Under the pieces are notes generated by a model, which was not told where the DNA came from, ran no database searches, and was given only the letters and a program-made list of their open reading frames with translations. The translations under genes and the position numbers were made by a program. A DNA stretch of 33,985 nucleotides from Saprospiraceae bacterium. Its GTDB lineage: Bacteria; Bacteroidota; Bacteroidia; Chitinophagales; Saprospiraceae. Positions 1-22,779 of the stretch are shown piece by piece; the stretch's first letter is position 1, and each line of letters opens with the position of its first letter. The stretch spans positions 1-33,985 of the forward strand of contig JADLHE010000537.1 in NCBI GenBank assembly GCA_020848965.1. Direction: 5' to 3'.

Positions 1-3000
1 GAGAGCGTTGCAGCAGCAGCCAAGTAGGTTGGATTGGCCGTTGTGGCCAGCCATTGACCATTGAAAGACCAGTCATAACTGACCGCCGAACCAGTAGTTG
101 GGGTGGCGTCGAGTTGCAAGGTTTCGCCTTCGCAAAGCTGCGCATCGGCCACGGTCACGGTCGGGGTGGCTGGCATTGAACCTACCTCAACGGCCACGCT
201 TTGCGGAGCTGAAACACAACCCTCGGCGCTGGTGAGCGTGAGCGTGTAGCTGCCTTCATTTTGCGGCGCAATGGACGAAAAAGCCAACGGGAACGGCCCT
301 GCCGCTGCCGCCGTACTTGTGAAATTAAAACCATTCGGCCCAGCCCAAGTGAACTGAACGGGCGCAGTCATCGGCAAGCTGTTCGAGGCGCTGAGGTTGA
401 CCGGGCTGCCCTCGCAGGCCGTCAAATTCTCCGTCAAATCGGCGATGATTGGGGACGGGTTCACTGGAATGAAAGTAGTTGCAACAGCTTCGTTTGCGCA
501 GCCATTTGTCCTCACAACCAATTGAAAATCAGTGGAATCCGTCAACGGCAAGCTCGGATTTTGTTCGAGGGAAACGACCTGCCCGGCCACCTGCCATTCG
601 TAGCTGACACCGACTTGGCTGGCCGCAAAAAGCTGCGCCATTTCGCCCTCGCAGACCGCCCCGCCGCTCCAGGCCAAGGCCACCGGGGCCGCCAATTGCT
701 CCACCATGACGGGTGCCGAAAGCACACTCGGACAGGTGTTCACAATGGTTTTCACCAAAAAAGGCGGCACTGCCAGCGGGTCGCCGATGGGCAGTGTGAG
801 CGTCGCCTCGCCCGTGCCGACGGGGTCGCCGCTGCCGTTCAGCCATTCATAGCTCACCGTTCCGAAATTGACGGGGTTTTGCACCGTCAGCACTAGGTCG
901 GCACCGGGACAAACGGGGCTGTTGGAGGCCACCAGCGGCGCATCGGGCAGCGGCAAAATGCCATCCACGACCAAACTAGCTGTTGCTTCACAGCCATTAT
1001 TGCCCGTCACCGTGATTTGATAAGCACCGATGGTAGCGATGTCCGTTTGGTAAATGACCGGGGTCGGCGAGTCGGAATCGAAGCCGCCCGGCCCTGTCCA
1101 GTGCCAATCGGCGATGCCATTCAGGTTGCTGTAAAACTGCAAAGTACCGCCCTCGCAAGGTTGGCTGAGGTAAAAATCGGGGTTGGGCTGCGGCTTGTCC
1201 AGCACGTCCACTGCATAGTTGGCGGACTCGACCACGCAGCCGTTCACCGTTGCCCGCAGCTTGTAATTGCCTTCAGCAACTGGTTGTATTCCGTTGAAAA
1301 TCAAGGTATTGGAAGTCTGGGCAAACAATGGCGTCGTGCCTTTGTACCATTGGTAGCTCACCTGCGAGCCAGCGTAGGGCTGCACGGACAGCGTCAAATC
1401 ATCGCCGGGACAGGCGGGCCCGGTGCTTTGCACTTGGGGCTGTGCCACGGCATCGGGGATGCCCGCCACCAGCACGGCCTCCGTTGCGGAGCAGCCGAAA
1501 ACATTGCTCACCTGCACCGTGTAGCTGCCGTTGGCACTGCTGTTTGCTGCCGCAATGACGGGGTTGGCCGCCTGCGAGGTGAACCCGTTCGGCCCCGACC
1601 AGAGGTAGCTCAACCCGATACCGTCAGCGTTGGCGGAGAGGCTCAGCGGCTTCGGCGAACAGTCGGTGGAAGGGGTGTATTGTTGTTGCGGAGCAAGGCT
1701 CGGCGGTTCGTTCAGGGAGATGGTGGCAGTGGCGGGAATGCTGGAAACGCAGCCGTCCTGCCAGACGAGCAGTTGGAAAGTTTGCGGAGCTAAAACATTG
1801 TCTATCAGCGGGTTGGCTTGCGTTGAAAACAAGGCAGCCTCACCCTGCCGACGCCATTCGTAAGTGGCACCGGGCAGCGGATTGGAGAGCAATTGCGCCT
1901 CGCCGCCAAGGCAAGTGGGGCCGCTCGTCTCGGCAAACGCCTGCGGCCTGGGCTTGATGAGCGTGGCCACGGGGGCGCTCATGGCCGAGCAGCCGTGTTC
2001 GTTGGTGATTTGGAGCTGCCAATTGCCGGAGGTATAAAGGTCCATCGTCTGATCAATATAGACCAAACTGTCGGTGGTGCTGAGCGCCGGGAGGATGCCA
2101 CCCAGCGGCCCGTACCAGTCGAAAACGGTGGATTGGGCGGTGGTTTGCAGTATGATTTTGTCACCAAAACAGATAGCGCCATTGGTCAAAAGTTCGGGCA
2201 CGGCAGGCAATGCATTCACCTGCAAATGCGTCGAAGCCGATGCGGGGTCGCAGCCGGGAGCGGTGAGCAAAAGCGTATAATCACCTGATTGATAATTGTT
2301 TACATCAAAAACAACAGGGTCGGCGAAGGTCGGATTGAAGCCCTGCGGCCCCGACCATAATAGCGAGGCATTGGCGGGCAAGGGGCTTGGCGCCATAATT
2401 TTGAGTTGGACATCTTCGCCTTCGCAAGCCGTTGCAGGCGCTTCGAGCTTTACCTCCAAATTGGTGCCGGGCTGCAATTCGACGGGCGGGCCAATGGCCG
2501 TGGCTAAGCAGCCAAAGCGAATGCCCCGCACTTGCGGCTGGTAGCTGCCGACACCAAGTCCAGAGAAATAGGGGCTGCTCGACCAGTTTTGGCCGCCGTC
2601 CACGCTGTATTCGAGGTTGGGAGCGCCGTGGGCGAAGAGCCGCAAAGTGCCATTCATGCCGCCGAGGCAGACGATGGGGTTGGCGGTTTGCACGCTGTCC
2701 AGTTTCACCAAGCCATCGGTGAAAAGGCAGCCAACGCAGGGCGCAGCGGCCATTGCGCCGGGGCAAATCGGGGTGTTTTCTGGGCTGTCGCCAAAGCGCA
2801 AAACATGACCGAGGCTGGCCGATTGCGAATTGGGCGGCAGGAAGGCATCATTGTTTTTCACCAAGTAAATGGAGTCACCTTGGCAACTCCCCCGGTTTGC
2901 GAAGCGAAAAATGGGCGTGCGGATGCCGGGCAAAAGCTGGGTGGCAGACCCCGTGGACAGCATCCGGAAGGTGATGAAATCGTGCGCATCGTCCTCCACG

Positions 3001-3753
3001 GGGGCATCCTGGCGGGAGGTGTTCCCGAAGGAAAACTGGCCGGGCAAGAGGTTGGTGAGGTTGTAAATCTGGAAAAAATTGGTCGGTACCCGCAACGAAA
3101 CCTGTAGGTAACGGAGCGGCCCCGGCGCTGAAAAAGCAGCGTCGGTGGCAAGCGAAACCTGGTACAGGCTATCGGAAAGCAGTTCCAACTCGCAGGTAAT
3201 CAAGCAGTTAGCCGCCGAAAAGCAATTGGCTTGGCCAGCATCATAGCGCCCAGCCACGGCATTGCCTTGCCCAGCACCCTCCACGATAAACTCGTTGAAA
3301 ACGGGCAGGCCGAGTGAGTTGGGTGGCAGAAAGGGGTCGTTGGTAGGGTGCATGATGTCGAGCAAGCCCGTGCAGCCCAGCGCATTCCGAAAGGAGAAGA
3401 GTCGAACCGCTTGGCCAGCGGGGTAGCTGATGGCATCCGTGGCAGCGGAAAGGGTAAAAACGGCATAGTCCACGCTGGGGTTTTCGATGGGGCGCTGCAC
3501 GAGGCTGGTCATTTGCCACTGCCCGGCATGGCTGGAGAGCGCCGCCAGTTCAAAGCCTCCAGTCGGTACGGTGACGACCAGTTTAGCGGCATGGGTGATA
3601 TGGTCGAGCGGGGGCAACAGGTCGGATTGGGAGCGGGCAATGGCGGTGTAGCTGCCATCCGGTTGCAGTTCCAGTTTCAGTTCTATCTGGCCAAAAACCG
3701 TGGTGGCCGTTGCACAGGCAAAAAGTGTCAGTAAGTGTAGGAGGTTTTTCATT
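1..3753 (-). CDS. Large secreted multi-domain Ig/PKD-like repeat surface protein (C-terminus beyond window)
   Basis: Manual reverse-strand translation from ATG at 3753 (MKNLLHLLTLFACATATTVFGQIELKLELQPDGSYTAIARS...) stays open to position 1. Signal peptide; repeated 'WSGPNGF / GSYTLTLTSAEGC' Ig/PKD-like modules. Not in ORF track because the stop lies outside the window. Confidence 0.9.
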
Positions 3754-4055: not shown

Positions 4056-6641
4056 TCACAACCTCGGATCTACCCCCTCCGTCTCCATCGCTAAAACCCC
4101 AAAAACGCATTCATGCACCCGACGCAGCGGTTCTTTCTGAACGAAGCGCTCCAATGCCTCAACCCCTAGTGCAAACTCCCGTGAAGCCATGCTCCGCTTT
4201 TGTCCAAGGCTTCGCTTTTTGAGCAAGGAAAGGTTGCGTGGCAGCGTGTATTCTGGGCCATAAATAATGCGCAAGTACTCACGTCCACGGCATTTCAAGG
4301 CTGGTTGCACCAGTTTTTCAGACTCCCTGTTTGCAATAAAATCCAAAGGTTTAACCACCATACCTTCCCCACCATTTGCTGTAAGTGCCTCCCACCATTC
4401 AATAGCTGCCGTTACCGTTTCAGGGGCTTCGAAATCTACCAAACGGTAGGGCGTGGCCAACAGAAAACCAGGGTCTTGATTGCAAATAGCATGGATTTCT
4501 TCCATGTGCCAGACGTGATTTTTGTCGAAATGCGCCTTGTCCTCTGTTGCCAGCAGGTGGAATGGCGCAAGGCGGTAGTCATCAAGGGAGGCTACCTCCC
4601 AGCAATAGCGGCGATAAGATTCAACGAATTGCCCGGCCATTGCCAGCCGTTCGCCGTAGGAGTTGACAAAACCGTTCATTTCAACGCCCCGGGCTTCAGC
4701 CGCTTTCATGGCCGACAAAACCGCTGGTAGCGCCGCCTTGGCAGATGCTCCGACTGCCGCATACTGGTTCGTAATAAGGCCTTGCGCCTTGGCCGACCAT
4801 GGCATTAGTTCGCAATCGAAAAGCGCCCACTCAGTTTGGTGTTTTTCCCAAAAGTCCGCATTGCTGAGTGCTTTGCAAAATCGTTGCAAGAAAGCAGATT
4901 CCAGTGCATTGTCTTCTGGGAAAAAGGAACGCCCCGTGCGAGTCCACACCTTGCCTATGCCCTCGTTTTGAACGCCAAACCGCCCCAAAGCTGCGGCTTC
5001 ATCTTTGCAAATGGCCACAACAGCACGGCTACCCATGTGTTTTTCTTCGCAAATGACCTGTCGAATGCCGATTTTTTTAAAATAATCAAACACCTCCTCT
5101 GGGCGCTCCAGGTGGTCAGGTTGGACGCTTGTTTCTCCCGGAGACATCGTAGGCGGCAGATAGACCAACCACTTGGGATTAATGGCAAACCGGGACATCA
5201 CTTCCAAGGCAGCCGTGGCATTTTCTTCCCGAATAAGCACGTTTTTTATGAGTCGGGTGCTGATATGGCGCTTCCCCAACACGTCCTCTAGGTGCAGCAG
5301 GTCGTCATTTTCCTGTTGCAAGGACAATAAAGGAGCCTGCGCCTCAAATGGGCGAGTTGGTTCGTAGTAAACCTCTTTTGCCGGCACGGAAACCAGTTCC
5401 CGTTCTGGGTAGCGAAGTGCCGTCAATTGTCCACCAAAGACACAACCCGTGTCTATGTCAATCGTGTTGTTGAGCCATTCAGGTTGCAGAACGGGCGTAT
5501 GGCCATACACGACCACCGCTCGGCCACGGTATTCCTTTGCCCAATTGTAGCGGACGGGCAGGCCAAATTCATCCGCCTCGCCCGTGGTTTCACCATACAG
5601 ACAAAAAGAACGCACTTCGGCAGAGGCCCTTCCTTGCATTTCTTCCCGAAGACCCGCATGGGCAACCACCAAACGCCCATTGTCGAAGACATAATGGCTA
5701 ATCAAAGCCTCCAAAAATTTGCGCACTTCTTTCAAGAATTCAGGCGGTTCTGTGGCCAATTGTTGCCAAGTCTGCTCCAGGCCGTGTCGCATTTGCACGT
5801 CACTCCCCCCGATTTTGCGGTTCAATTTGTCGTCGTGGTTGCCGGGCACACAAATAGCAGTGCCTTGCTTGGCCATGCTCATCACCAAGCGCAGCACTTC
5901 GTTGGAAGCCGGGCCACGGTCCACAAAATCACCGACGAAAACGACCTTCCGGTTGGAGCCTATCGGCGGCGTTACGGAGTAACCAAAATGCTTATCGAAC
6001 AGGTTGCGCTCCTTGTGCTTCGTGACTTTGTAGCCAAGTTTTCCGAGTAGTTCTTTGAGTTCGAGGAAACAGCCGTGTACGTCCCCAATAATGTCAAATG
6101 GGCCAGATTCGTGCTTTTTATCATTCCACATTTTAGTGCGGCTGACGGCCACCGCTTCCACTTCTTCCGCATTGCGCAGCACAAAAATTTGCCGGAAACC
6201 TTCTTTTTTCAAACGTGCAATGATGCCTCGCATTTCCCGGTGCTGGTGCTGTATGACCTTGCCACTGATATTCCGGTCGGTGCGGGCGGCATTGCGGTCA
6301 ATGCAGGTGCGAAGCGGCAAATCGAGCACGATGGCCACGGGAAGCACATGGTGTTCCTTGGCCAAGGCAATCAAGGATTTGCGGGCCTCGGCCTGCACAT
6401 TGGTGGCATCCACCACGGCGAGTTTGCCTAATTTTAGGCGCTTCGCAATGATATAATGCAAAAGGTCGAAAGCCTCGCTGGAAACGGATTGGTTCAGTTC
6501 GTCATCGCTGACGAGCGCCCGGCAATAATCGCTAGACACCACCTCCGTGGGCAGGAAATGCCGTTTTGCGAAGCTGCTTTTGCCAGCCCCGGAAGGGCCA
6601 ACGAGGGCGATGAGGGAGAGTTCAGGTATTTGGATTTGCAC
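4056..6641 (-). CDS. pnkp: Polynucleotide kinase-phosphatase-ligase (bacterial Pnkp, RNA repair)
   Basis: P-loop GPSGAGKSSFAK; metallophosphoesterase motifs GDVHGC, GDFVDRGP, GNHDDK; C-terminal ligase-like motif EEKHMGSRAV. Likely GTG start at 6641 (VQIQIPELSLIALVGPSGAGKS). The ORF-track start at 7034 is an out-of-frame extension into Hen1. Confidence 0.92.
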   Translation of the reverse strand: MQIQIPELSLIALVGPSGAGKSSFAKRHFLPTEVVSSDYCRALVSDDELNQSVSSEAFDLLHYIIAKRLKLGKLAVVDATNVQAEARKSLIALAKEHHVLPVAIVLDLPLRTCIDRNAARTDRNISGKVIQHQHREMRGIIARLKKEGFRQIFVLRNAEEVEAVAVSRTKMWNDKKHESGPFDIIGDVHGCFLELKELLGKLGYKVTKHKERNLFDKHFGYSVTPPIGSNRKVVFVGDFVDRGPASNEVLRLVMSMAKQGTAICVPGNHDDKLNRKIGGSDVQMRHGLEQTWQQLATEPPEFLKEVRKFLEALISHYVFDNGRLVVAHAGLREEMQGRASAEVRSFCLYGETTGEADEFGLPVRYNWAKEYRGRAVVVYGHTPVLQPEWLNNTIDIDTGCVFGGQLTALRYPERELVSVPAKEVYYEPTRPFEAQAPLLSLQQENDDLLHLEDVLGKRHISTRLIKNVLIREENATAALEVMSRFAINPKWLVYLPPTMSPGETSVQPDHLERPEEVFDYFKKIGIRQVICEEKHMGSRAVVAICKDEAAALGRFGVQNEGIGKVWTRTGRSFFPEDNALESAFLQRFCKALSNADFWEKHQTEWALFDCELMPWSAKAQGLITNQYAAVGASAKAALPAVLSAMKAAEARGVEMNGFVNSYGERLAMAGQFVESYRRYCWEVASLDDYRLAPFHLLATEDKAHFDKNHVWHMEEIHAICNQDPGFLLATPYRLVDFEAPETVTAAIEWWEALTANGGEGMVVKPLDFIANRESEKLVQPALKCRGREYLRIIYGPEYTLPRNLSLLKKRSLGQKRSMASREFALGVEALERFVQKEPLRRVHECVFGVLAMETEGVDPRL

Positions 6642-6649
6642 CTTGTTCG

Positions 6650-6684
6650 AATGATAATTGATGAATGGTAAATGATGGATGGAC
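6650..6684. repeat. Heptamer tandem repeat (AATGATR family)
   Basis: AATGATA-ATTGATG-AATGGTA-AATGATG-GATGGAC in the Hen1-Pnkp gap. Confidence 0.65.
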
Positions 6685-6690
6685 TCAGGC

Positions 6691-8082
6691 TTACACCCTT
6701 TGGAACACGGCCATTTGGCTTGGTGCCCCGTGGGTTTCGTCCTCGTCGCCCAAGGGCAGCACCTCGGCTTGGTAGCCATGTGCTTCGCAAACCTTGTCGC
6801 ACCAAGCCCGGAACTGGCTCCGTGTCCATTCAAAGCGGTGGTCGGAATGGCGGAACTTGCCTTCGGGCATGCCCTCAAAAAGCACGTTGTACTCGCCGTT
6901 GGGCGTGGTGATGACCACGGTACTAGGGCGTGCATGGCCAAACAGCACTTTTTGCAAAGCATCCAAACGGGCTTCGTCCAAGTGCTCGATGACCTCCACC
7001 AAAGCAGCAGCATCGAAGCCATCCAAACGGGCATCCCGGTAGGTTAGCGACCCTTGGAAAAGTGCAATCCGTTCTTTCATGGCAGGCGAGGCATCGCTGA
7101 GGTTGAGGCGTCGCTGCGCAATTTGGAGCGTCCGCAAGGAAATGTCCATTCCCCTGATTTTATCGAATTGGCCATGCGGCATCAAGAGTCGAATCAATTT
7201 GCCCTCCCCACAGCCAAGGTCGAGCACCGAGCGGGCACCGGATGCTTTCAATTGCTCAACAACTGCCCGCAGTCTGATGTCGTGGAGTTTGGTTTTTTCA
7301 ACCCGCTCCTTCATGTCCACAGTTTCTTCCTCTTCGGCTTGTTCATCCTCTACGACGAGGCGGCTAAGGGCTTCTTTTGCCAAGGCGCCCCGGTTTTTCA
7401 AGTAGCGCCGGGTTATGAACTCCTGTTCAGGGTGCTGCTTCAACCAATCGCCGCCTTTTTCGAGCAGCTTTTCGATTTCCTCTTTCCCCATGTAGTAGTG
7501 CTTGTTGTGGTCAAGCGCAGGTATCAGCACAAACAAATGCGAAAGCAAGTGCTGAAGCTGGATATTTTGGCGCAGCCGAACCGAGAAATAGGCGCTGCTG
7601 CCCCAATTGGGAAACTGCTCATCAAGCGGGTGCTGTGTTGCCTCCACTTCATAACCCAATGGTTCAAAAAAGCGGCGTAACACGGCCTCACCACCACGGA
7701 CGGGCAAACAAGGCAACTCAGCCACGAGCGGGATTGGTGTTTCGGCCAGTTCGGGCCGTTCCTTGCAGTTGCCGTTGAGGGCGCTGCCAAAGACCTTTGA
7801 GATGGCCGTCGTCAAAAAAGAAGAGGCCACATAGGGACGGTCATTAACGAAATGCTCCAATTGGAAGCCGCCATCGAAATTGTTGCTGCCAGACTTGAGC
7901 AGTTCAACAGGATTCAATTCCAGCAACAAACTAGCGGTACAAACCTTGTCGGAGGCTTCCGGGAAAAAGACATGGGCATTGCCGAACGGCAGTTCCTTTG
8001 ATTGGAAGCGGCCGGGGTGCTTGCCGAGCAAATAGCCGAGGTCGGTAGCAGGTTGGTAAGTGGTCGAGATGCTTAGGAGCAT
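6691..8082 (-). CDS. hen1: 3' terminal RNA ribose 2'-O-methyltransferase Hen1 (bacterial)
   Basis: SAM-MTase motif VLDLGCGEGKLIRLL, EVIEHLDEARL, bacterial Hen1 N-terminal domain (MLLSISTTYQPATDLGYLLGKHPGRFQS); paired with Pnkp. Confidence 0.92.
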   Translation of the reverse strand: MLLSISTTYQPATDLGYLLGKHPGRFQSKELPFGNAHVFFPEASDKVCTASLLLELNPVELLKSGSNNFDGGFQLEHFVNDRPYVASSFLTTAISKVFGSALNGNCKERPELAETPIPLVAELPCLPVRGGEAVLRRFFEPLGYEVEATQHPLDEQFPNWGSSAYFSVRLRQNIQLQHLLSHLFVLIPALDHNKHYYMGKEEIEKLLEKGGDWLKQHPEQEFITRRYLKNRGALAKEALSRLVVEDEQAEEEETVDMKERVEKTKLHDIRLRAVVEQLKASGARSVLDLGCGEGKLIRLLMPHGQFDKIRGMDISLRTLQIAQRRLNLSDASPAMKERIALFQGSLTYRDARLDGFDAAALVEVIEHLDEARLDALQKVLFGHARPSTVVITTPNGEYNVLFEGMPEGKFRHSDHRFEWTRSQFRAWCDKVCEAHGYQAEVLPLGDEDETHGAPSQMAVFQRV

Positions 8083-8145: not shown

Positions 8146-9639
8146 TCAATGCAGCACAAAAATCTTTTCATACCCAAGCTGCCCATCTTGGAACTTTAAC
8201 GTGAGATAGTACATGCCTGACTGAAAGCCTCCGACCCCTAAAGACAGTTTCCCGCTTTCATCACTAGGATAAACACCGAGCAGCCTACCAGTGGCATCAT
8301 GAATGCTTGCCTCAAAAGGCATAGCACTGCTGGCCGTCTCGATATGGATGACCTCACTGGCGGGGTTAGGAAATACCTTCACACCGAGCAGTCCAGAAAG
8401 CGATTGTACCTCAGCCGACAATAAGCTATCGCAGGGGCTACCCGCCAATGGCCCCAGTCTGTAGTTTGGAAAATGCGGTAGCCCAAATACAATATAAGTA
8501 GGCGTTATAAGCCCATGCTGCTGAAAATCACAGGCGAGGCCCGGTTCATCCGGTGAGTTGATGACGTGAAGCATGTTCACTTGGTTATGCGCGCTCAGGT
8601 AAATCTTGCCATTGGGTGCCAACTGCGCCATATAAAAAGTGGTGGGGTACGGCAATTGAAATCCATCATATATTGCCACAACGACCTTTGAGGCTGCTAT
8701 ATCGCTTGCTTCAGTATCGAACTGGTAAACCCGGTCCCATGAAGACACATACAAGAACCTTGAATTAGGTGAATAAGCTAGACCTCCTGCCACCAAGGTG
8801 GTGTCAGAAGCATCAGTAATAGTCACATGTAATGGGTTGCTCAATTCGCCTGTGCAACGGTCAAAATCAAAAATATTCAGGTCGTTGACAAGGTCGTAGC
8901 GGGCGTACTTCGAGCCATCGGGTGAAAAAACGCTTTGGCCTCTCGTGTCGTCTAAATCATAGACTGGCCCTATGTTCTGCTCTTGCAAATCCCAGACTGA
9001 ATCCCGTTGGAACAGCACCTTGAAATAGCCGTTGGTGGCCTTGTCAGGCTGCACCACCCACCAGTCCCTGCCGTTGCCGTGCTTGGTAGCTGTTATCTTA
9101 CCCAATGCGAAATTGTGCTCCTTGATGATTTCGTTCTTGCTAATTACCCTGCCCTTACCACCATTCAGCCGCATGTCCACCACTGTCTTCTGCAGTCGGT
9201 CACAAATGCCCATGCCGGAGTTAATGGCCCGCATGTGGAACAGGAAGAAGAGGCTGTCCCTCGTGCTAGATGGCAATACAACGACGCCTTGGGCGCAAGG
9301 GTAGCCATAATCTATGAACTGGTCGTGTACCTCGCCAGGGTTGATACTATCCCCATTCTCAATCAACTGCTGGTCGTTGCCGATGATTCGGATACCGTTT
9401 GTGGCAAACATTAGGTTCCCTTCAACATCACAGATGGAAGCATTGGTGAACCTGAACCAAATATCCCTTGTAACAATTTCCACTGTGACTGAATCATCAC
9501 CGAACGTAAGGTCTGTGCCTCCGAATATTGGGTTAGGCTCATAGGTCTCCTGTCCGAATACCCAATGGTGGTCGTGTTTTTGGGCGTAAGCCAAGCTAAA
9601 ACAATGAAGCAGCAAGAAGAGTATGAGTTGAAATTTCAT
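8146..9639 (-). CDS. Secreted beta-propeller-like protein with T9SS type A sorting domain (paralog 1)
   Basis: Signal peptide MKFQLILFLLLHCFSLAYAQ from ATG 9639; C-terminal VKVFPNPASEVIHIE...; close paralog of 9700..11199. Confidence 0.88.
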   Translation of the reverse strand: MKFQLILFLLLHCFSLAYAQKHDHHWVFGQETYEPNPIFGGTDLTFGDDSVTVEIVTRDIWFRFTNASICDVEGNLMFATNGIRIIGNDQQLIENGDSINPGEVHDQFIDYGYPCAQGVVVLPSSTRDSLFFLFHMRAINSGMGICDRLQKTVVDMRLNGGKGRVISKNEIIKEHNFALGKITATKHGNGRDWWVVQPDKATNGYFKVLFQRDSVWDLQEQNIGPVYDLDDTRGQSVFSPDGSKYARYDLVNDLNIFDFDRCTGELSNPLHVTITDASDTTLVAGGLAYSPNSRFLYVSSWDRVYQFDTEASDIAASKVVVAIYDGFQLPYPTTFYMAQLAPNGKIYLSAHNQVNMLHVINSPDEPGLACDFQQHGLITPTYIVFGLPHFPNYRLGPLAGSPCDSLLSAEVQSLSGLLGVKVFPNPASEVIHIETASSAMPFEASIHDATGRLLGVYPSDESGKLSLGVGGFQSGMYYLTLKFQDGQLGYEKIFVLH

Positions 9640-9651
9640 GGCAACAAAACA

Positions 9652-9681
9652 GTAGCCCAAGGCAATCACGCCTTGGGCTAC
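9652..9681 (-). terminator. Perfect 12-bp stem-loop between tandem paralogs
   Basis: GTAGCCCAAGGC-aatcac-GCCTTGGGCTAC; followed by TGTTTTGTT on minus strand. Confidence 0.6.
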
Positions 9682-9699: not shown

Positions 9700-11199
9700 T
9701 TAATGGTTGATGGTCACTTTGCTTGAAAGGGTTTGACCTTTCAAATTCATAACTTTTAAGAAATAAACGCCATTCGGAATGTTCTTCAAGGAAAGCTCAA
9801 ACTGGGCATTGCCCGCCGTTGATTTGGAAACCAGCAGAGCTTGGCCAAACTGGTTGAAAAGAACAATATCGTCACCTTCTGTAAAATCGTTGGGCAGCAT
9901 GATGGTCAAGGCGTCGCTGGCGGGGTTAGGAAAGACCTTGATTTGAAGCTGCGTTTCAACATTTTCATGGGCCTCGGATATTAAGCTATCGCAGGGACTG
10001 CCCGCCAACGCCCCCAGTCTGTAGTTTGGAAAATGCGGTAGCCCAAATACAATATAAGTAGGCGTTATAAGCCCGTGCTGCTGGAAATCACAGGCCAAAC
10101 CCGGCTCATCCGGTGAGTTGATGACGTGCAACATGTTCACTTGATTTGGTGAACTCAGGTAAATCTTGCCGTTCGGCCCCAACTGCATTAAGTAAAAAGT
10201 GGTGGGATAAGGCAATTCAAACCCGTCGTAGCTTGCTACGACGACCTTCGAGGCGGCGATGTCGGTTGCCTCGGTATCAAACTGGTAAACCCGGTCCCAA
10301 GCGGACACGTAGAGGAACCTCGAATTTGGGGAGAAAGCAAGGCCACCATACGCAAAGGTGGTGTCCGAGGCATCGGTGATGGCAACGTGCACGGGGTCGC
10401 TCAGTTCTCCCGAGCAGCGGTCAAAGCCAAAGATGTTCAGGTCGTTGTCGTGGTCGTAGCGGGCGTACTTCGAGCCATCGGGTGAGAACACGCTTTGTCC
10501 TCTTGAATCGGATAAAGTGATAACTGGCCCTATTTTCTGTTCCTGTATCTCCAGCACGGAATCCCTTGCGAACAGCACCTTGAAATAACCGTTGGTGCTC
10601 TTTTCGGGCTGCACCACCCACCAGTCCCTGCCGTTGCCGTGCTTGGTGGCCGTTATCTTGCCGTATGCGAAGTTGTGCTCCTTGATGATTTCGTTCTTGT
10701 ACACCACCCTGCCCTTGCCGCCGTTCAGCCGCATGTCCACCAGTGTCTTCTGCATTCGGTCGCAGATGCCCATGCCGGAGGTGGTGGCCCGCATGTGGAA
10801 CAGGAAGAACAGGCTGTCCCTCGTACTGGAGGGCAGTATGATGGCGCTTTGAGCACATGGGTAGCCATAATCAACAAAATCGTCGTGCACATCCCCGGCA
10901 TTGATGCTGTCCCCGTTCTCAATCAACTGCTGGTCGTTGCCGATGATTCGGATACCATTTGTGGCGAACATCAGGTTGCCCCCCCGGTCGCAGATGGAGG
11001 CATTGGTAAACTCAAACCAAATATCCCTTGTCACCATTTCGGAGGTGACCGAGTCTTCGCCGAATATCAGGTCAGTGCCACCAAATATCGGCATCGGCTC
11101 ATAGGTTTCCTGTCCAAGCACCCAATGATGGTCGTGTTTTTGGGAATGGCCAATATAGGCGCAACCCAACAGACAAAGGATTAAGGAAATATGCCGCAT
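9700..11199 (-). CDS. Secreted beta-propeller-like protein with T9SS type A sorting domain (paralog 2)
   Basis: Signal peptide MRHISLILCLLGCAYIGHSQ; body closely matches 8146..9639; C-terminal IKVFPNPASDALTIM... Confidence 0.88.
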   Translation of the reverse strand: MRHISLILCLLGCAYIGHSQKHDHHWVLGQETYEPMPIFGGTDLIFGEDSVTSEMVTRDIWFEFTNASICDRGGNLMFATNGIRIIGNDQQLIENGDSINAGDVHDDFVDYGYPCAQSAIILPSSTRDSLFFLFHMRATTSGMGICDRMQKTLVDMRLNGGKGRVVYKNEIIKEHNFAYGKITATKHGNGRDWWVVQPEKSTNGYFKVLFARDSVLEIQEQKIGPVITLSDSRGQSVFSPDGSKYARYDHDNDLNIFGFDRCSGELSDPVHVAITDASDTTFAYGGLAFSPNSRFLYVSAWDRVYQFDTEATDIAASKVVVASYDGFELPYPTTFYLMQLGPNGKIYLSSPNQVNMLHVINSPDEPGLACDFQQHGLITPTYIVFGLPHFPNYRLGALAGSPCDSLISEAHENVETQLQIKVFPNPASDALTIMLPNDFTEGDDIVLFNQFGQALLVSKSTAGNAQFELSLKNIPNGVYFLKVMNLKGQTLSSKVTINH

Positions 11200-13615: not shown

Positions 13616-14368
13616 ATGAATTTCCCAATTGAAATCACACTCGGACCGCTGCACCTGAACCTGCACTTCGTCTTTGAAATATTGGCTTTCTTCGTGGGAT
13701 ACCGCTACTTTTTGTGGCTGCGCCAACGGACGCCCGACCCTTTGCCGACGCAAAACCGGATGTGGGCCTTTGTGGGGGCAGCGGGTGGTGCGCTGCTCGG
13801 CTCGCGGCTGCTGGGGGCACTGGAAGACCCTACTGTTTTCTTTAGCGAAGCCAATTCGCTGCATTATGTTTTTCAAAGCAAGACCATCGTGGGCGGGCTG
13901 CTGGGCGGACTGGCGGGCGTGGAGGCCATCAAATGGGCCATCGGCGAGCGGCAGTCTTCGGGCGATTTGTTCACCTATCCCCTTATTTTGGGCATGATAC
14001 TAGGGCGTATCGGCTGCTTCACAATGGGGGTGAATGAACCGACCTTTGGCTATCCGACCGACCTGCCCTGGGCGCTCGACCTCGGCGATGGCATACCTAG
14101 GCACCCCACGGCGCTTTATGAAATCGGGTTTCTCGCACTGCTTTGGATGGCGCTTCGGTTTGTGGAAAAAAAAGTGGCCCTGGCCAATGGCACTCGATTC
14201 AAATTGTTCATGGTCAGCTATTTGTGCTGGCGATTGGCAGTGGGGTTCATACAGCCGGGTTGGCGCTTCGGGTTTGGGCTGACGGTGATTCAGGCGGCTT
14301 GTTTGGTGGGGTTGGGCTACTATGGTTGGCTGTTTTTTAGGTTGAGCAGCATTCGGAAAAGCCATTAA
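13616..14368 (+). CDS. Prolipoprotein diacylglyceryl transferase (Lgt)-family membrane protein, divergent
   Basis: Multiple TM segments; FQSKTIVGGLLGG, LGRIGCFTMGVNEPTFG, PRHPTALYEI motifs collinear with Lgt; ATG at 13616 preferred over the TTG at 13598. Confidence 0.82.
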   Translation: MNFPIEITLGPLHLNLHFVFEILAFFVGYRYFLWLRQRTPDPLPTQNRMWAFVGAAGGALLGSRLLGALEDPTVFFSEANSLHYVFQSKTIVGGLLGGLAGVEAIKWAIGERQSSGDLFTYPLILGMILGRIGCFTMGVNEPTFGYPTDLPWALDLGDGIPRHPTALYEIGFLALLWMALRFVEKKVALANGTRFKLFMVSYLCWRLAVGFIQPGWRFGFGLTVIQAACLVGLGYYGWLFFRLSSIRKSH

Positions 14369-14389
14369 CTTTGGTGAAAATTCCAATTC

Positions 14390-15787
14390 ATGCCCGTCTC
14401 GAAATACACCTATTACGACTTTACGCTCTCCCTTTGCCCGGAATGCCTGCGCCGGGTGGATGCCAAAATCGTCTTTGAAGACGGGCAGGTTTTTATGCTG
14501 AAACGCTGCCCGGAGCACGGCCGCCAGCGGGTGCTCATCGCCACCGACATCGCCTACTACAAAAACCAGCGCAACTACAATAAGCCGAGCGAGTACCCCC
14601 GCCGTTTCAATACCAAAACACACCTCGGCTGCCCTTACGACTGCGGCCTCTGCAACGACCACGAGCAGCACTCCTGCCTCACCGTAGTGGAAATCACCGA
14701 CCGCTGCAACCTCACCTGCCCCATTTGCTATGCCGAAAGTTCGCCCTCGCACGGGCGGCACCGAACGTTGGAGGAAGTGGAGCGAATGCTCGATATCATC
14801 GTGGAGAACGAGGGCGAACCGGATGTGGTGCAAATCAGCGGAGGGGAGCCGACCATACATCCGCAGTTGTTTGAAATCCTCGATGCTGCCAAACGGCGCC
14901 CCATCAAGCACCTGATGCTGAACACCAATGGGCTGCGCATCGCCAACGACCCCGGCTTTGCGGAGCGGCTGGCTGATTACATGCCCGATTTTGAGATTTA
15001 CCTTCAATTTGACTCGTTCAAAGCCTCGGCGCTGGAGTGTCTGCGTGGTCAGAACTTGTTGAAAATCAGGGAGAAAGCACTCGAAAACCTCAATCGGGTG
15101 AACCTCTCGACCACCCTCGTGGTCACGCTGCAAAAAGGGTTGAACGACGACGAAATCGGGGCCATCACGGAGTTTGCGCTGCAACAAAAATGCGTGCGGG
15201 GCGTCACTTTTCAGCCTACCCAAGTGGCTGGCCGTGCCGACGGCTTCAACCCTGCCACCGACCGCCTGACATTGACCGAAGTGCGGCAGGCCATCCTCGA
15301 CCAGACCAGTATTTTCCAACCAAACGACATCATTCCCGTGCCCTGCAACCCCGATGCCTTGGCCATGGCCTACGCCCTGAAAATAGAAGGGCAGGTGCTG
15401 CCGCTCACGAGGTTCATTGACCCAACGGCCTTGCTCGACAACAGTCGTAACACCATCGTGTACGAGCAAGACGAGCGCCTCCATGAGCATGTGACGAAGC
15501 TGTTCAGCACCGCCAACTCCGTGGATTCGCTGGAATGCGATTTCAACCAATTGCTTTGCTGCCTCCCCTTTGTAAAAGCACCAGACTTGAGTTACGACAA
15601 CCTATTCCGCATCATCATCATGCGCTTCATTGATGCCTTTGACTTTGATGTGCGGGCCATTAAGAAGTCCTGCGTACACATCGTTCACCAAGATGGGCGG
15701 ATTATCCCGTTCGAAACGATGAACTTGTTTTACCGGGATGAAGAAAAGGAACGCATGGTGAAGGAATTGGCAGAAATGAGTTTCTAA
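14390..15787 (+). CDS. Radical SAM protein, Tes/MJ0619-like (tetraether/membrane-spanning lipid synthase-related)
   Basis: N-terminal CPECLRR...KRCPEHG metal-binding-like module; HLGCPYDCGLCNDHEQHSCLTVVEITDRCNLTCPICYA; QISGGEPTIH; C-terminal Cys-rich segment ECDFNQLLCCLPF. Confidence 0.85.
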   Translation: MPVSKYTYYDFTLSLCPECLRRVDAKIVFEDGQVFMLKRCPEHGRQRVLIATDIAYYKNQRNYNKPSEYPRRFNTKTHLGCPYDCGLCNDHEQHSCLTVVEITDRCNLTCPICYAESSPSHGRHRTLEEVERMLDIIVENEGEPDVVQISGGEPTIHPQLFEILDAAKRRPIKHLMLNTNGLRIANDPGFAERLADYMPDFEIYLQFDSFKASALECLRGQNLLKIREKALENLNRVNLSTTLVVTLQKGLNDDEIGAITEFALQQKCVRGVTFQPTQVAGRADGFNPATDRLTLTEVRQAILDQTSIFQPNDIIPVPCNPDALAMAYALKIEGQVLPLTRFIDPTALLDNSRNTIVYEQDERLHEHVTKLFSTANSVDSLECDFNQLLCCLPFVKAPDLSYDNLFRIIIMRFIDAFDFDVRAIKKSCVHIVHQDGRIIPFETMNLFYRDEEKERMVKELAEMSF

Positions 15788-15799
15788 AACCAAAGTATC

Positions 15800-16141
15800 A
15801 TGGAAGATAAAATCAGCAATGAAAATCAGGCCGACCCGATGAAGGGGTTTGGGAAAATTGTAGGGGTCAACCTTGCCATATTTGGAGCACAGGTGGCCAT
15901 TGTATATGGTGTTGACAATGCCGGCAACTTGGGGAACACTATTGCCATGCTTGTTGGCATGGGGATGTTCGTCACGCTGCCCGTACAACTATTGGTCAAT
16001 TTAATTTTGGCAATTGGCAGTTTCGGCAACAAGCAGAAGCTGCCCGGCATTGCCTATTTGCTCAGTATCGTTTTGGTTTTCCTGATTGGCTACTCGGCAT
16101 GTGGCGGGTACAGCATTTTAACAGAGGGACTTGTACATTAA
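15800..16141 (+). CDS. Small integral membrane protein (about 3 TM helices)
   Basis: 113 aa, hydrophobic; starts 12 nt after the radical SAM stop. Confidence 0.75.
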   Translation: MEDKISNENQADPMKGFGKIVGVNLAIFGAQVAIVYGVDNAGNLGNTIAMLVGMGMFVTLPVQLLVNLILAIGSFGNKQKLPGIAYLLSIVLVFLIGYSACGGYSILTEGLVH

Positions 16142-16261
16142 TTTGAAAATCATTGGTGGCGAAAGTGCATTTAATGCCTAAGCACCCCTTTCAGCCCCCC
16201 ATTCTTCCCACTCAGCCAATAGCCGATAGTTTTGGGCGTAGGTTCCTGTTATTTTTGGGGT

Positions 16262-16897
16262 ATGTCTGGAAAATCCGCAATCAAAAAACGATGGCTGTTG
16301 GCTTCGACGGCTTATTTCGAGGCCTTTTTCTTCACCTTGGGCACGGGTTACAAGCACGCCCCCCTGCTCGACGACGACGGACTCGGCCCGATTGACTCCA
16401 CGGATACACTGGACGCCATTCCCGTCATTGATACCATCCCCGACGGCATCCCTTGCGACCCGGATTCGGTTTATTTCGAAACGGATACGCTGCCATTACT
16501 CATTTCCAACTGCACCATGTCGAGCTGCCACAATACGGTCTCCCACAAGGAATGCGTCATCTTGGGCTATTGCCAGAACGTGTTGAACACGGGGGACATT
16601 AAGCCAATCAACCCCAACTATGGCCAATGCAATACCTCCAATATAAAATTTTACACTTTCATAAAACCTGTTATTGACACCCATTGCAAGGGCTTACACA
16701 GCGGCAACCCGCCTTCCGGTAATATCAATTTGTCCAATTATGCAGGCGTCAAAACAATCGCCTTGAATGGCAAATTGCTCGGCACCATTTTAAGGCCGAG
16801 CGGCTACCGCAAAATGCCGCAGGGAGAGAACAAATTGGACGATTGCACTATTTCCAAATTTGAGGCATGGATTGCCGCAGGCGCAACCGGGAATTAG
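16262..16897 (+). CDS. Cytochrome-c-like (PSCyt1-like) exported protein with degenerate heme site
   Basis: ISNCTMSSCHNTV and PVIDTHCKGLHSGNPPSGNINLSNYAGVKTIALNGKLLGTI...KMPQGENKLDDCTISKFEAWIAAGA; ATG at 16262. Confidence 0.7.
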   Translation: MSGKSAIKKRWLLASTAYFEAFFFTLGTGYKHAPLLDDDGLGPIDSTDTLDAIPVIDTIPDGIPCDPDSVYFETDTLPLLISNCTMSSCHNTVSHKECVILGYCQNVLNTGDIKPINPNYGQCNTSNIKFYTFIKPVIDTHCKGLHSGNPPSGNINLSNYAGVKTIALNGKLLGTILRPSGYRKMPQGENKLDDCTISKFEAWIAAGATGN

Positions 16898-16980: not shown

Positions 16981-17028
16981 CCATGAAACCATGAAGCAAT
17001 GAAACCATGAAACCATGAAACCATGAAT
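16981..17028. repeat. 8-bp tandem repeat (CCATGAAA)
   Basis: CCATGAAA-CCATGAAG-CAATGAAA-CCATGAAA-CCATGAAA-CCATGAAT; last unit contains the ATG at 17023. Confidence 0.85.
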
Positions 17029-17376
17029 TTGATAAAAAAATACTTAGCAATTTGCACCTTAGCGGCTGCGGTTTTTGGTTCGTGCTACTACGATGTGGAG
17101 AAGGAACTTTACCCTACGTTGGATTGCAGCACGGCTGGCGCAACCCATTCGGCGGTGATTGAACAAATCATCCGGTCGAACCGCTATACTGGTAGCCACA
17201 ATGCTGCGACGAATATTGCCAATATCACCTTGGAAGGCTATATTGACAACGGGAAATTGCTGGGGGTAGTGGAGCATAGTACAGGCTTTTCGCCCATGCC
17301 CAAAAACGCCGCCAAGATGGTGGACTGCAATATTGCGAAGCTGGAAGCCTGAACAAACGCAGGCGCAGCTTTTTGA
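17023..17376 (+). pseudogene. Decaying cytochrome-like paralog (CYYDVEKELYP family)
   Basis: MNLIKKYLAICTLAAAVFGSCYYDVEKELYPTLDC...NGKLLGVVEHSTGFSPMPKNAAKMVDCNIAKLEA*TNAGAAF: in-frame TGA (17350-17352) where the neighbour has W (KFEAWIAAGA); expected CxxCH replaced by YTGSH. Confidence 0.6.
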
Positions 17377-19097: not shown

Positions 19098-19952
19098 TCA
19101 TTCCGGAATCTGCTCCGAAAGTATATAATTCAATACCCCTGCGTAAATCGCAACCTGCGTGAAGGCAACGGAGCGGTCGTTATTGGGGCCATAAAAAGTA
19201 GCATAACCATCCATGTTCAGGTCAGCCAAAGCATAGGCTTTTGCGGCATAGTTGCCATAACTTTGACTGTTGCCGGAGGCACTGTAAACATAGGTAAACA
19301 AATAGAAAATATCGTTGTTTGGCCCTTGATAAATGCATCGTTTGTCGCGGTTGGTGTCGCCCAGCCAAAGCATGCGTTTATTGCCCACTTCCTTGGTAGC
19401 GTGCGTGCCGTACAGTGGTAGGTCAAGGCTGGTGAAATCCACGGTAGTTGCATTGCTGGACAGCGAAATCGGTTTGGCGGTCATGGTGCCAAGATGGTTG
19501 CGGTGCCTGACGGAGACGTGATATTCGCCCGGCGCAACGCTCAAAAAACGAACGGGAGAAACGCCGTCAGTGGAAACCACATCGCCATCCCGCTGCAACA
19601 GGGCTGCGTGGGTGCTGACGGGCTTGGCCATATTGCCGGGGCTGCGCAATTCAACCACGACCCAATCCACAATGGCATCGTTGCCAGTGACCTGAAAAAC
19701 GGCAGGGTTTGTCACCGATTCGCCGCCGCCATCGCCGTAGTGCTTAAAATGGACGAGGCCAGTGTAAGGCTCGGAATTGGGCAACAGGCCATTGGCCCGG
19801 ATGCCGTCCCGCATCAGGCCATTGGATTCAAGGGCGCCAGAAAGCAAAAGTTTTGGGCTGACGGCCACGCCATTATGCGCATTTGCTTGCAATGAAAATG
19901 CTGCAAACACGGCCAGCAGCATGGATTTTTGCTTTGAAGGAAAGAATTTCAT
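19098..19952 (-). CDS. Secreted protein with paired dockerin/EF-hand-like repeats (tandem paralog 1)
   Basis: Signal peptide; GDTNRDKRCIYQGPNNDIF and DLNMDGYATFYGPNNDRS; shared VDWVVVELRS...ALLQRDGDVVSTDGVSPV...RHRNHLG block. Confidence 0.85.
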   Translation of the reverse strand: MKFFPSKQKSMLLAVFAAFSLQANAHNGVAVSPKLLLSGALESNGLMRDGIRANGLLPNSEPYTGLVHFKHYGDGGGESVTNPAVFQVTGNDAIVDWVVVELRSPGNMAKPVSTHAALLQRDGDVVSTDGVSPVRFLSVAPGEYHVSVRHRNHLGTMTAKPISLSSNATTVDFTSLDLPLYGTHATKEVGNKRMLWLGDTNRDKRCIYQGPNNDIFYLFTYVYSASGNSQSYGNYAAKAYALADLNMDGYATFYGPNNDRSVAFTQVAIYAGVLNYILSEQIPE

Positions 19953-20006
19953 GATGTTGACGAAAAGGGGAGTGGGTTAGTTGAATGATTTTCGGTTTAG
20001 CTCGCC

Positions 20007-20885
20007 TTATTCTGGCAGGCAATCGGGTAAGATATAGTTTGAAACGACGGTCGTATTGGGGGGATAGGTAACGATGTTGTGGAATACCAATTCCACATCA
20101 TTGCCCGCACCTTGATAAATTACTTTACCATCCATGTTCAGGTCGTAAATCGAGTATCTTTTGTTGATATAATTGCTCTCCAAATTGGTGTTCCCAGTTG
20201 CTTCTGGCCCTATAATGCCCCGCAATAAAAGTATCGACCTGTCATTGCTTGGGCCTGTGACTATCACCCTTCCATCCCTGCTGCAATCCCCGGCCCACAT
20301 GGCCGCTTTCCCGCCAATGATTTTTTGCCCGTATTGGCAAACTGCCGTGTTGGGGTCGGTAAAATTGACGGTCACGGGCATTTGCGATAGCGAGACTTTA
20401 GCGTTCGTCATTATGCTCAGGTGGTTTCGGTGCCTGATAACGACATGGTACTGTCCGGCATCCACATTGGAGAAAATGACGGGCGATTGGCCATCAGCGG
20501 CCACCACATCACCATCACGCTGCACTAGTGCCGAACTGGTGGCCAAAACGGCATTTGTTGCACTCGACGAAGTGCGCAACTCGACCACCACCCAATCCAC
20601 GATGGCGTCGGGGCCAGTGGCTTGCAAAAGGGCTGCATTGGCAATGGTTTCGCCGCCACCGCCGCCCTTGTGCTGGAAATTGGCAAGGCCCGTATAGGGT
20701 TCGGTCATGGGCAAAAGCCCTTCTGCCCGCAGGTCGTCCCGCATCAGCGTTGCCGCAGGCGAAAGACCGTGCAGCGCCGCTTGTAGATAGACCTTTGGGC
20801 GCAACGAAACGCCGTTTTGGGCATGGAGGCCCAGACAAAACGCTATTCCGGCAGCAGAAAAAATGATTCGTTTGAAAGATTGCAT
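20007..20885 (-). CDS. Secreted protein with paired dockerin/EF-hand-like repeats (tandem paralog 2)
   Basis: GDCSRDGRVIVTGPSNDRS and DLNMDGKVIYQGAGNDVEL; shared N-terminal block. Confidence 0.85.
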   Translation of the reverse strand: MQSFKRIIFSAAGIAFCLGLHAQNGVSLRPKVYLQAALHGLSPAATLMRDDLRAEGLLPMTEPYTGLANFQHKGGGGGETIANAALLQATGPDAIVDWVVVELRTSSSATNAVLATSSALVQRDGDVVAADGQSPVIFSNVDAGQYHVVIRHRNHLSIMTNAKVSLSQMPVTVNFTDPNTAVCQYGQKIIGGKAAMWAGDCSRDGRVIVTGPSNDRSILLLRGIIGPEATGNTNLESNYINKRYSIYDLNMDGKVIYQGAGNDVELVFHNIVTYPPNTTVVSNYILPDCLPE

Positions 20886-20930
20886 GTTGATGTGTTTTTA
20901 GTTTGTAAATAGTGATGAAAAGGGGATGTA

Positions 20931-21803
20931 TTAAGGTATGCATTCCAACAGCACCCAATCACCACCGCTTTGCCAACCTGGGTGTGAGGTAAAAAACTGC
21001 ATCAGCACCGCTCTATCATTGTTTTGGCCACTGTAAATTGCTTTGCCATCCATATTGGCATCCGCCATCAAATAGCCTTTGCTGATATAATTTGCCGAGA
21101 GTTGGGTATTGGCCTGGTCATACAGCACGGTGGTGAACAGTTTCAAAACCTCATTGCCTGGGCCTTGGAAAATGAATCGGCCATCGTTGTTGAGGTCGCC
21201 GCCCCAAAGTGCACGCTTGGCTCCCAAATTGGCCATTGCGTATGCTCCGCACTGCAAAGCGAGGTTAGGGTCGGTAAAATCAAGACTTTTGGGCGTACTG
21301 GAAAGCTGCACGGGCAATTCCGTCATTACGCCAAGGTGTATGCGGTGGTCAATTACCACGAAATACTCCCCGGCTGGCGTTTGAGGGAAATTGACGGCAG
21401 AGGCGCCATCCACATCCACCACATCGCCATCCCTTTGCAGCAGGGCAGCCCTAGTCGCCAAAACCTGGCTTAGGTCCAAAGTTGACCTAAGTTCCACCAC
21501 GACCCAATCCACAATGGCATTGGAGCCAGCCACTTGCAATATGGCAGGATCGCTGATAGTTTCGCCGCCACCACTGCCGGAAGGCTGGGAGTTGGCAAGG
21601 CTTGAATAAGGTTCGGTCATGGGCACCAAGCCTTGTTTCCGAAGGTCGTCCCGCATCAGCGTTGCCGCAGGCGAAAGGCCATGTAGGGCAGCTTGGAGAT
21701 AGACCCTCGGCTTGATGCTTACGCCCGTTTGCGCATTGGCCTGCGCCCCCAATAAAGGCAGCAAGAAAAGAAGGGCAATAGGGCGAATGTGTTTGTGTTT
21801 CAT
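20931..21803 (-). CDS. Secreted protein with paired dockerin/EF-hand-like repeats (tandem paralog 3)
   Basis: GDLNNDGRFIFQGPGNEVL and DANMDGKAIYSGQNNDRA; shared N-terminal block. Confidence 0.85.
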   Translation of the reverse strand: MKHKHIRPIALLFLLPLLGAQANAQTGVSIKPRVYLQAALHGLSPAATLMRDDLRKQGLVPMTEPYSSLANSQPSGSGGGETISDPAILQVAGSNAIVDWVVVELRSTLDLSQVLATRAALLQRDGDVVDVDGASAVNFPQTPAGEYFVVIDHRIHLGVMTELPVQLSSTPKSLDFTDPNLALQCGAYAMANLGAKRALWGGDLNNDGRFIFQGPGNEVLKLFTTVLYDQANTQLSANYISKGYLMADANMDGKAIYSGQNNDRAVLMQFFTSHPGWQSGGDWVLLECIP

Positions 21804-21882
21804 GTTGAGTTATTTAAAATGTTAGAAAAAGCAACTAATGGATGGTTCTGAAGGCATAAACAGCCTGGTCAACGCTTAACTA

Positions 21883-22779
21883 TCAGGGCAGTTCCTCCAC
21901 CAATCGGCAATCGCCGCCCACTTCTGGGCAGTTGTGTTGCCAAAGGAAAACGATGTCGAAAGTGAGCTGTGCACCATCCGAACTTGGCCCTTGGTATTTC
22001 ACGAGGCCATCCATATTGATGTCGCTGTCATCATACCCTTTTAGCACAAAGTTCTGGTTGGCATCCACGTTGTCGGGCGACAGCAATACATGGAAGAAAA
22101 TATGCTCCTTGTCGCTTTCGGCACCTTCGGCTTCCACCCGTCCGTTGTGATTGGCATCCCCGGCAAACAATGCCATTATATTCTCACGCAACTGAATCAT
22201 GGGCTTGTTCCCATAGCACTTCAGTTTGGGGTTGGTGAAATCAACGATTTGAGGGGTTTCCGTGAGGTTGAAGGCCAAAGTGGCCATTACCCCAAGGTGG
22301 TTGCGGTGGCGAACGGCCACCATATAAGTGCCTGGCTCTACGTCGGGGAATTGCAGCGGCGAAACGCCGTCCACATCCACCACGTCGCCGTCCCGCTGGA
22401 GCAATGCCGAGCGGGTGGCCAAAACGACTTTTTGAAGCTCTGGGTGCCTCAGTTCAACGAAGACCCAATCCACGATGGCATTGGAGCCTTCCACATTCAG
22501 AACTGCTTGGTTTTCAATGACCTCGGTGCCACCCAAAACGCCGTAGTGGCTATAATTTTCCCTTGCGGAATAAGGCTCTTGGAGGGGAATCTGCCCGGTC
22601 GTTCGAAGGTCGTCCCGCATGAGCATACTTGGCTGTTTTACGCCGAGCATGGCACCTTGCAGGTACATCCTGATACTCAATTGCACACCTTTGTTGGGAG
22701 GGAGATTACCGGCATTGCTGGCTGGCACCAAAAAAAACGAGGCAAATAGCAATGCAGGAATTAGGGTTCCGATTCTCAT
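21883..22779 (-). CDS. Secreted protein with paired dockerin/EF-hand-like repeats (tandem paralog 4)
   Basis: GDANHNGRVEAEGAESDKE and DINMDGLVKYQGPSSDGA; shared N-terminal block. Confidence 0.85.
   Translation of the reverse strand: MRIGTLIPALLFASFFLVPASNAGNLPPNKGVQLSIRMYLQGAMLGVKQPSMLMRDDLRTTGQIPLQEPYSARENYSHYGVLGGTEVIENQAVLNVEGSNAIVDWVFVELRHPELQKVVLATRSALLQRDGDVVDVDGVSPLQFPDVEPGTYMVAVRHRNHLGVMATLAFNLTETPQIVDFTNPKLKCYGNKPMIQLRENIMALFAGDANHNGRVEAEGAESDKEHIFFHVLLSPDNVDANQNFVLKGYDDSDINMDGLVKYQGPSSDGAQLTFDIVFLWQHNCPEVGGDCRLVEELP

Follow-up and report, generated by a model that had tools for sequence, protein, structure and literature searches.

A conserved three-gene cassette in Bacteroidota with Lgt-like and Tes-like enzymes and a candidate C-terminal cysteine lipidation substrate

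What do an Lgt-family membrane protein and a radical SAM enzyme resembling tetraether lipid synthase (Tes) do next to each other, and next to a small membrane protein? The question is raised by a locus in the window (the whole analysed stretch of 33,985 nucleotides, contig JADLHE010000537.1 of the Saprospiraceae bacterium assembly GCA_020848965.1), where three genes on the forward strand, here named lgtL, tesL and smC, each run from ATG to TAA and are separated by gaps of 21 and 12 nt. An earlier note on this DNA had reported the three genes and their spacing, and all coordinates, starts and stops are confirmed. The features are as follows.

13616..14368, + strand: lgtL, Lgt-family membrane protein with seven transmembrane (TM) helices, 250 aa, predicted diacylglyceryl (or modified-lipid) transferase
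14390..15787, + strand: tesL, radical SAM enzyme of the Tes/TrsS superfamily, 465 aa
15800..16141, + strand: smC, membrane protein with three TM helices, 113 aa, proposed substrate with candidate acceptor Cys101
16046..16108, + strand: C-terminal signal of smC, the last TM helix ending in LVFLIGYSACGG; codon of Cys101 at 16100-16102

Scans of the locus for promoters and terminators returned signals no commoner than in shuffled sequences. The flanking families seen across cassette loci (F3-F12), which we take from their sequences to include LepA, DusB, RbfA and an M28 peptidase, were considered as partners and rejected as lineage synteny. Just downstream of the cassette, the window encodes a secreted protein with the haem-like motif CTMSSCHN (16232-16897, +) and a shorter relative in which this motif is apparently degraded (17023-17352, +), a pair not seen beside the cassette elsewhere. 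Other genes of the window include two tandem, very similar proteins of about 500 aa (8146-9669 and 9700-11199, -), the first with a Por secretion (T9SS) C-terminal domain, four tandem secreted paralogues of about 290 aa with a repeated GDxNxDG.xxxxGPxND-like motif (19098-22779, -), of which the one copy searched (19098-19952) has no Pfam match, and a bacterial Pnkp-type polynucleotide kinase-phosphatase-ligase, an RNA repair enzyme (4056-7034, -).

The first gene product passes the gathering score of the Pfam LGT family (67.3 bits, cut-off 24.9), so that its earlier assignment as an Lgt-family membrane protein holds, while it falls below both lgt equivalog models (26.8 bits, cut-off 118.9; 27.7 bits, cut-off 334). 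As a separate and stronger LGT match (132 bits), identified as the housekeeping Lgt, is present on another contig of the same genome (G000:C86), the cassette protein is a paralogue beside a housekeeping copy. Its fold is predicted confidently (pLDDT 88.7), and its sole solved relative is E. coli Lgt (PDB 5AZB), both by profile (E=1.4e-14) and by fold (E=1.5e-6, TM 0.61). It shares the seven-helix fold with this enzyme but is without the large periplasmic head insertion. In E. coli Lgt, the lipid-donor pocket is built from R143, E202, Y235 and R239 (PMC4728403); their equivalents are conserved in all aligned cassette copies, whereas the position of the essential H103 (HGGL motif) is occupied by V, L, M or T in all of them, neither His nor Tyr being found. 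The loss of H103 could indicate that the acceptor differs, or that no thiol is modified at all; its use as decisive proof of a new chemistry was rejected, because the housekeeping Lgt of the window organism has Tyr at this position and likewise lacks the His, so that the loss alone proves nothing. The protein may well act as Lgt does, with a new acceptor.

The radical SAM protein matches the Pfam families Radical_SAM (90.7 bits) and HMPTM zinc ribbon (74.5 bits) and contains the motifs CPEC, CPEHG, GCPYDCGLCNDH and CNLTCPIC. The solved protein most closely related to it is tetraether lipid synthase MJ0619 (Tes, or GDGT-MAS) of M. jannaschii (PDB 7TOL, E=1.5e-71), and the AlphaFold model of tesL aligns with 7TOM along its full length (Foldseek E=2.5e-33, TM 0.77); as the confidence of the model is moderate (pLDDT 70) and the cluster loops are poor, it was used for the overall fold only. 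Compared with the rubredoxin-like, N-terminal cluster and radical SAM motifs of Tes, taken from the passages on them in PMC9433317, tesL retains the rubredoxin-like site C16/C19/C40/H43, spaced exactly as in MJ0619 (CX2CX20CX2H), the auxiliary-cluster motif C81/C85/C88/H91 (CX3CX2C plus His) and the radical SAM motif C106/C110/C113. It also has extra invariant cysteines (C96, C319, C390 and C391). The sequence of the C-terminal cluster region differs from that of Tes: the equivalents of Met439 and C456 (C428 in tesL) are kept, but the cysteines of the Tes motifs IPFC and HQHC are replaced by E and A in the Bacteroidota cassette proteins. Tyr459, strictly conserved in archaeal Tes, is Ile or Val in all cassette proteins (Ile in tesL). 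In the same passages, the Y459F/L variants of Tes are described as remaining active (PMC9433317).

Against the curated family models, tesL scores 291.6 bits with NCBIfam Tes (NF045702, cut-off 450) and 333.5 bits with NCBIfam TrsS (NF045646, cut-off 490), the latter being the best-scoring family model with a full-length alignment; a Tes protein from the same phylum reaches 493.8 bits against the Tes model. Thus the earlier attribution to the Tes/MJ0619 family stands for the CPEC/CPEHG module, the cluster motifs and the fold, and does not extend to membership of Tes proper, whose cut-off is failed and whose Tyr459 is absent. The comparison places the product of 14390..15787 in the Tes/TrsS superfamily and in no family with a known non-lipid substrate. 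Judged by the curated cut-offs, the cassette enzymes are neither Tes, TrsS nor housekeeping Lgt.

Conservation of the pairing was examined in 297 Bacteroidota genomes from across the phylum, searched with both the lgtL and the tesL protein. Each enzyme is found in 26 genomes (18 of 141 genera), both together in 25 and neither in 270, with one exception each way (Fisher p=4e-34, a value that treats genomes as independent although they are not). The single genome with the radical SAM protein only (G066) encodes a different protein, one that passes the Tes cut-off. As two genomes (G034 and G273) carry lgtL and tesL on different contigs, the co-occurrence exceeds what operon inheritance gives. Among the best 80 named loci, all from Bacteroidota with 70-78% identity, 73 of the 76 with enough context have an lgtL-type gene upstream on the same strand, within 60 bp or overlapping in 54 of these 73; two of the three remaining loci have the gene elsewhere in the genome. 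The linkage that the earlier note had seen in one contig is therefore conserved across Bacteroidota and, as described below, beyond, and by these pairing and co-occurrence counts the gene arrangement is not a chance one. Genes found between lgtL and tesL in Hymenobacter and others were rejected as partners, since they differ between loci and look like unrelated insertions. One genome carries an Lgt-like gene without the radical SAM gene (L150, G017:C10:159000-169000); no cysteine-tail protein lies near it.

The third gene, smC, encodes a 113-aa protein with three predicted helices; it has no Pfam or NCBIfam match above cut-off, is without an N-terminal signal peptide ending in a lipobox cysteine, and carries Cys101 at the end of its last helix, the C-terminal end being LVFLIGYSACGGYSILTEGLVH. 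Among the best 80 loci, an ORF of 45-135 aa with at least two TM helices directly follows tesL in 73 of 76, in one to three copies. These small proteins fall in several groups of little mutual similarity and nevertheless share a tail with the consensus L-[LI]-[IV]-[GS]-[LF]-[GS]-x-C, in which the cysteine stands 3-14 residues from the C-terminus. A cysteine is present in the last 26 residues of 101 of the 108 small ORFs, and the pattern [GAS]x(1,2)C within the last ~25 residues of 99, compared with one of 16 small TM ORFs elsewhere in those loci. Of these 101 cysteines, 98 are preceded by G or S at -4, 83 by L or F at -3 and 95 by G, S or A at -2. The tail is lipobox-like only, as position -1 is mostly I, T or V and not G, A or S. 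It is also distinct from the NCBIfam lipo-invert tail (NF058595), which was rejected as an explanation, the small proteins scoring 13-14 bits, smC among them with 13.9, against a cut-off of 37; in 148 Bacteroidota genomes this profile gave no match over the cut-off, and its many weak matches to TM segments are noise.

The small proteins occur with the module exclusively, and their cysteine tail is conserved. A profile of the two-helix type matches nine of the 297 genomes, all of them cassette-positive, and adjoins tesL wherever the assembly permits a check (in G212 the match lies on a short contig of its own, as an assembly break would explain), while in 61 relatives smC homologues are found only beside tesL, save one weak match with an internal stop. 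In four loci of another family, the small protein lies between lgtL and tesL. Within 1.6 Mb of a closed cassette genome (G134), the full tail is present in one of 1,521 ORFs, the cassette protein itself, and a genome-wide sorting signal was thus rejected. Taken together, these counts make a conserved three-gene module well supported, and as nearly every other cassette has a counterpart ending in the predicted helix-plus-cysteine tail, the third gene is more than an accessory. What this recurring tail suggests is that a dedicated small membrane protein is lipidated, and not only that bulk lipid is modified. The genomes of the window's own genus mates (G297-G309) contain no smC homologue (0 of 13), though many other Bacteroidota have the cassette, a pattern suggestive of patchy inheritance or lateral transfer.

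More distant versions of the cassette are found within and outside the phylum. The distant Bacteroidota G121 and G156 encode radical SAM proteins 39-41% identical to tesL, in the order tesL, ICMT-family methyltransferase, DUF4395 protein, lgtL and a small protein ending LLFGAC.. or LIFGSC.. (the ICMT and DUF4395 family matches were checked on the G121 copies), and G096 matches the window in its three parts, the tail being LLSGGMC. The membrane methyltransferases lie at 4883-5494 of L148, the copy on which the family was tested, and at 4784-5374 of L149. The isoprenylcysteine carboxyl methyltransferase family is known for modifying C-terminal lipidated cysteines, and this enzyme could catalyse another step of the cassette's pathway. 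In Actinomycetota, an Lgt-family gene, at least one TM protein and a Tes-like gene occur together on plasmids of Mycobacterium avium and M. branderi and in Nonomuraea gerenzanensis, the TM proteins having tails of the form IGWAL.SI...G[IYL]CTG[LI]NP. The cysteine-tail protein of Nonomuraea (L143, ORF 2081-3193) is up to 371 aa long with a long Pro/Gly-rich N-terminal region before its TM helices, so that the tail can evidently be attached to a soluble domain. In a tree of the radical SAM proteins, the Lgt-linked members group together against a methyltransferase-linked relative with weak support (68), and the G096 protein groups with the actinobacterial ones (support 100), which suggests lateral transfer.

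The reading we favour, to which we give a little short of an even chance, is that the cassette is a dedicated three-part system by which a small multi-span membrane protein is lipidated on its C-terminal cysteine. In the small proteins of the best 80 loci, the loop leading into the last helix has 3.4 K/R residues on average and the tail beyond the cysteine 0.14, and by the positive-inside rule the cysteine is therefore predicted to be outside, the side of the inner membrane which the Lgt active site faces (PMC4728403). The small protein would insert so that its last helix ends on the outer side of the inner membrane and its cysteine comes to lie where a lipobox cysteine normally sits, and lgtL would then transfer a diacylglyceryl-type group from a phospholipid to its thiol; both the position of the cysteine and the retained donor-site residues argue for this step. 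The soluble tesL, presumably on the cytoplasmic side, would act before lgtL on the lipid tail, by C-C coupling or another radical modification, and the delivered anchor would then be non-standard, possibly membrane-spanning. That a lipid is the substrate of tesL is suggested by homology. The two enzymes need not share a substrate, as a cytoplasmic radical SAM enzyme and a periplasmic cysteine are on opposite sides of the membrane. The wider proposal, a new protein lipidation in which a radical-SAM-modified, possibly tail-to-tail coupled lipid is attached to C-terminal extracytoplasmic cysteines of polytopic proteins in at least two phyla, is more ambitious, and we consider it rather unlikely to hold in full.

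There is a likeness in idea to the C-terminal cysteine sorting signals MYXO-CTERM and GlyGly-CTERM, which also have an invariant cysteine in a C-terminal membrane segment, and an Lgt-like transferase acting on the C-terminal cysteine has been hypothesised for MYXO-CTERM (PMC11980579). In MYXO-CTERM, however, the cysteine stands ahead of the TM helix, and the C-terminus is a basic tail in the cytoplasm, whereas in the cassette proteins the cysteine follows the helix and there is no basic tail; moreover, the cassette has no linked sortase, and its signal is confined to cassette proteins in the genome stretch surveyed. No published description of the cassette was found in the open-access literature, a scope outside which most subscription papers and all bioRxiv preprints fall, and the system is apparently undescribed, as the earlier note had supposed.

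Production of a modified membrane lipid, the reading first offered for this locus, would have tesL couple or alkylate lipid tails, lgtL supply or remodel the diacylglycerol part, and the small protein serve as a scaffold or subunit with a structural cysteine. It draws on tetraether lipid synthase being the closest solved relative of tesL, on the Lgt fold and donor-site residues of lgtL, and on both enzyme families acting on membrane lipids; we nevertheless think it improbable, as it leaves unexplained why a fast-diverging small protein, often in two or three tandem copies, should retain only the helix-plus-cysteine tail, and why the tail should recur in Actinomycetota on proteins with long Pro-rich N-termini. 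The earlier proposal of membrane-lipid or lipid-linked-product modification is partly supported, the tail redirecting it to lipidation of the small protein and not only to modification of bulk lipid.

Alternatively, the small protein may be a ribosomal, hypermodified membrane peptide, modified by tesL and lipidated by lgtL to give a secreted or surface-active lipopeptide. A radical SAM gene next to short, divergent and tandem-duplicated partners, which are themselves confined to the cassette, does recall a precursor-peptide locus. These partners span the membrane several times, however, and show no leader/core layout; no SPASM-type model matches tesL above its cut-off, and the solved protein nearest to tesL binds lipids rather than peptides; and no conserved exporter or protease lies beside the cassette loci, all of which makes this origin quite doubtful. 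Equally doubtful is that tesL acts on a non-lipid target, as HMPTM/TrsS-type enzymes might, with the small-protein cysteine as a redox or metal site: the slightly better score of tesL against TrsS than against Tes and the soluble methyltransferases that adjoin other TrsS-type genes would fit, but not the single conserved outer-face cysteine beside an Lgt-family transferase in every lineage checked, nor the small proteins themselves, in which no second conserved ligand was seen.

Lipidation of the small protein by a dedicated cassette, if correct, bears on how bacterial Tes homologues are viewed. What the many bacterial homologues of tetraether lipid synthase do is unproven; the usual suggestion is that they make brGDGTs (PMC8941075, PMC11868695). 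The TrsS/Tes-type genes examined, on one Mycolicibacterium and one haloarchaeal plasmid, adjoin a soluble methyltransferase and not Lgt, unlike tesL, which is linked to an Lgt-like gene and a cysteine-tail protein. Through the cassette, one large clade of the bacterial Tes homologues gains a concrete partner and a concrete candidate substrate, and the question of its role can be tested on one small protein by mass spectrometry. Caution is advisable where bacterial Tes homologues serve as markers of membrane-spanning bulk lipids. If true, the proposal would bring the C-terminal cysteines of polytopic proteins into lipoprotein biogenesis, and the cassette may provide the kind of enzyme that has been hypothesised, and not yet found, for C-terminal cysteine lipidation in other systems.
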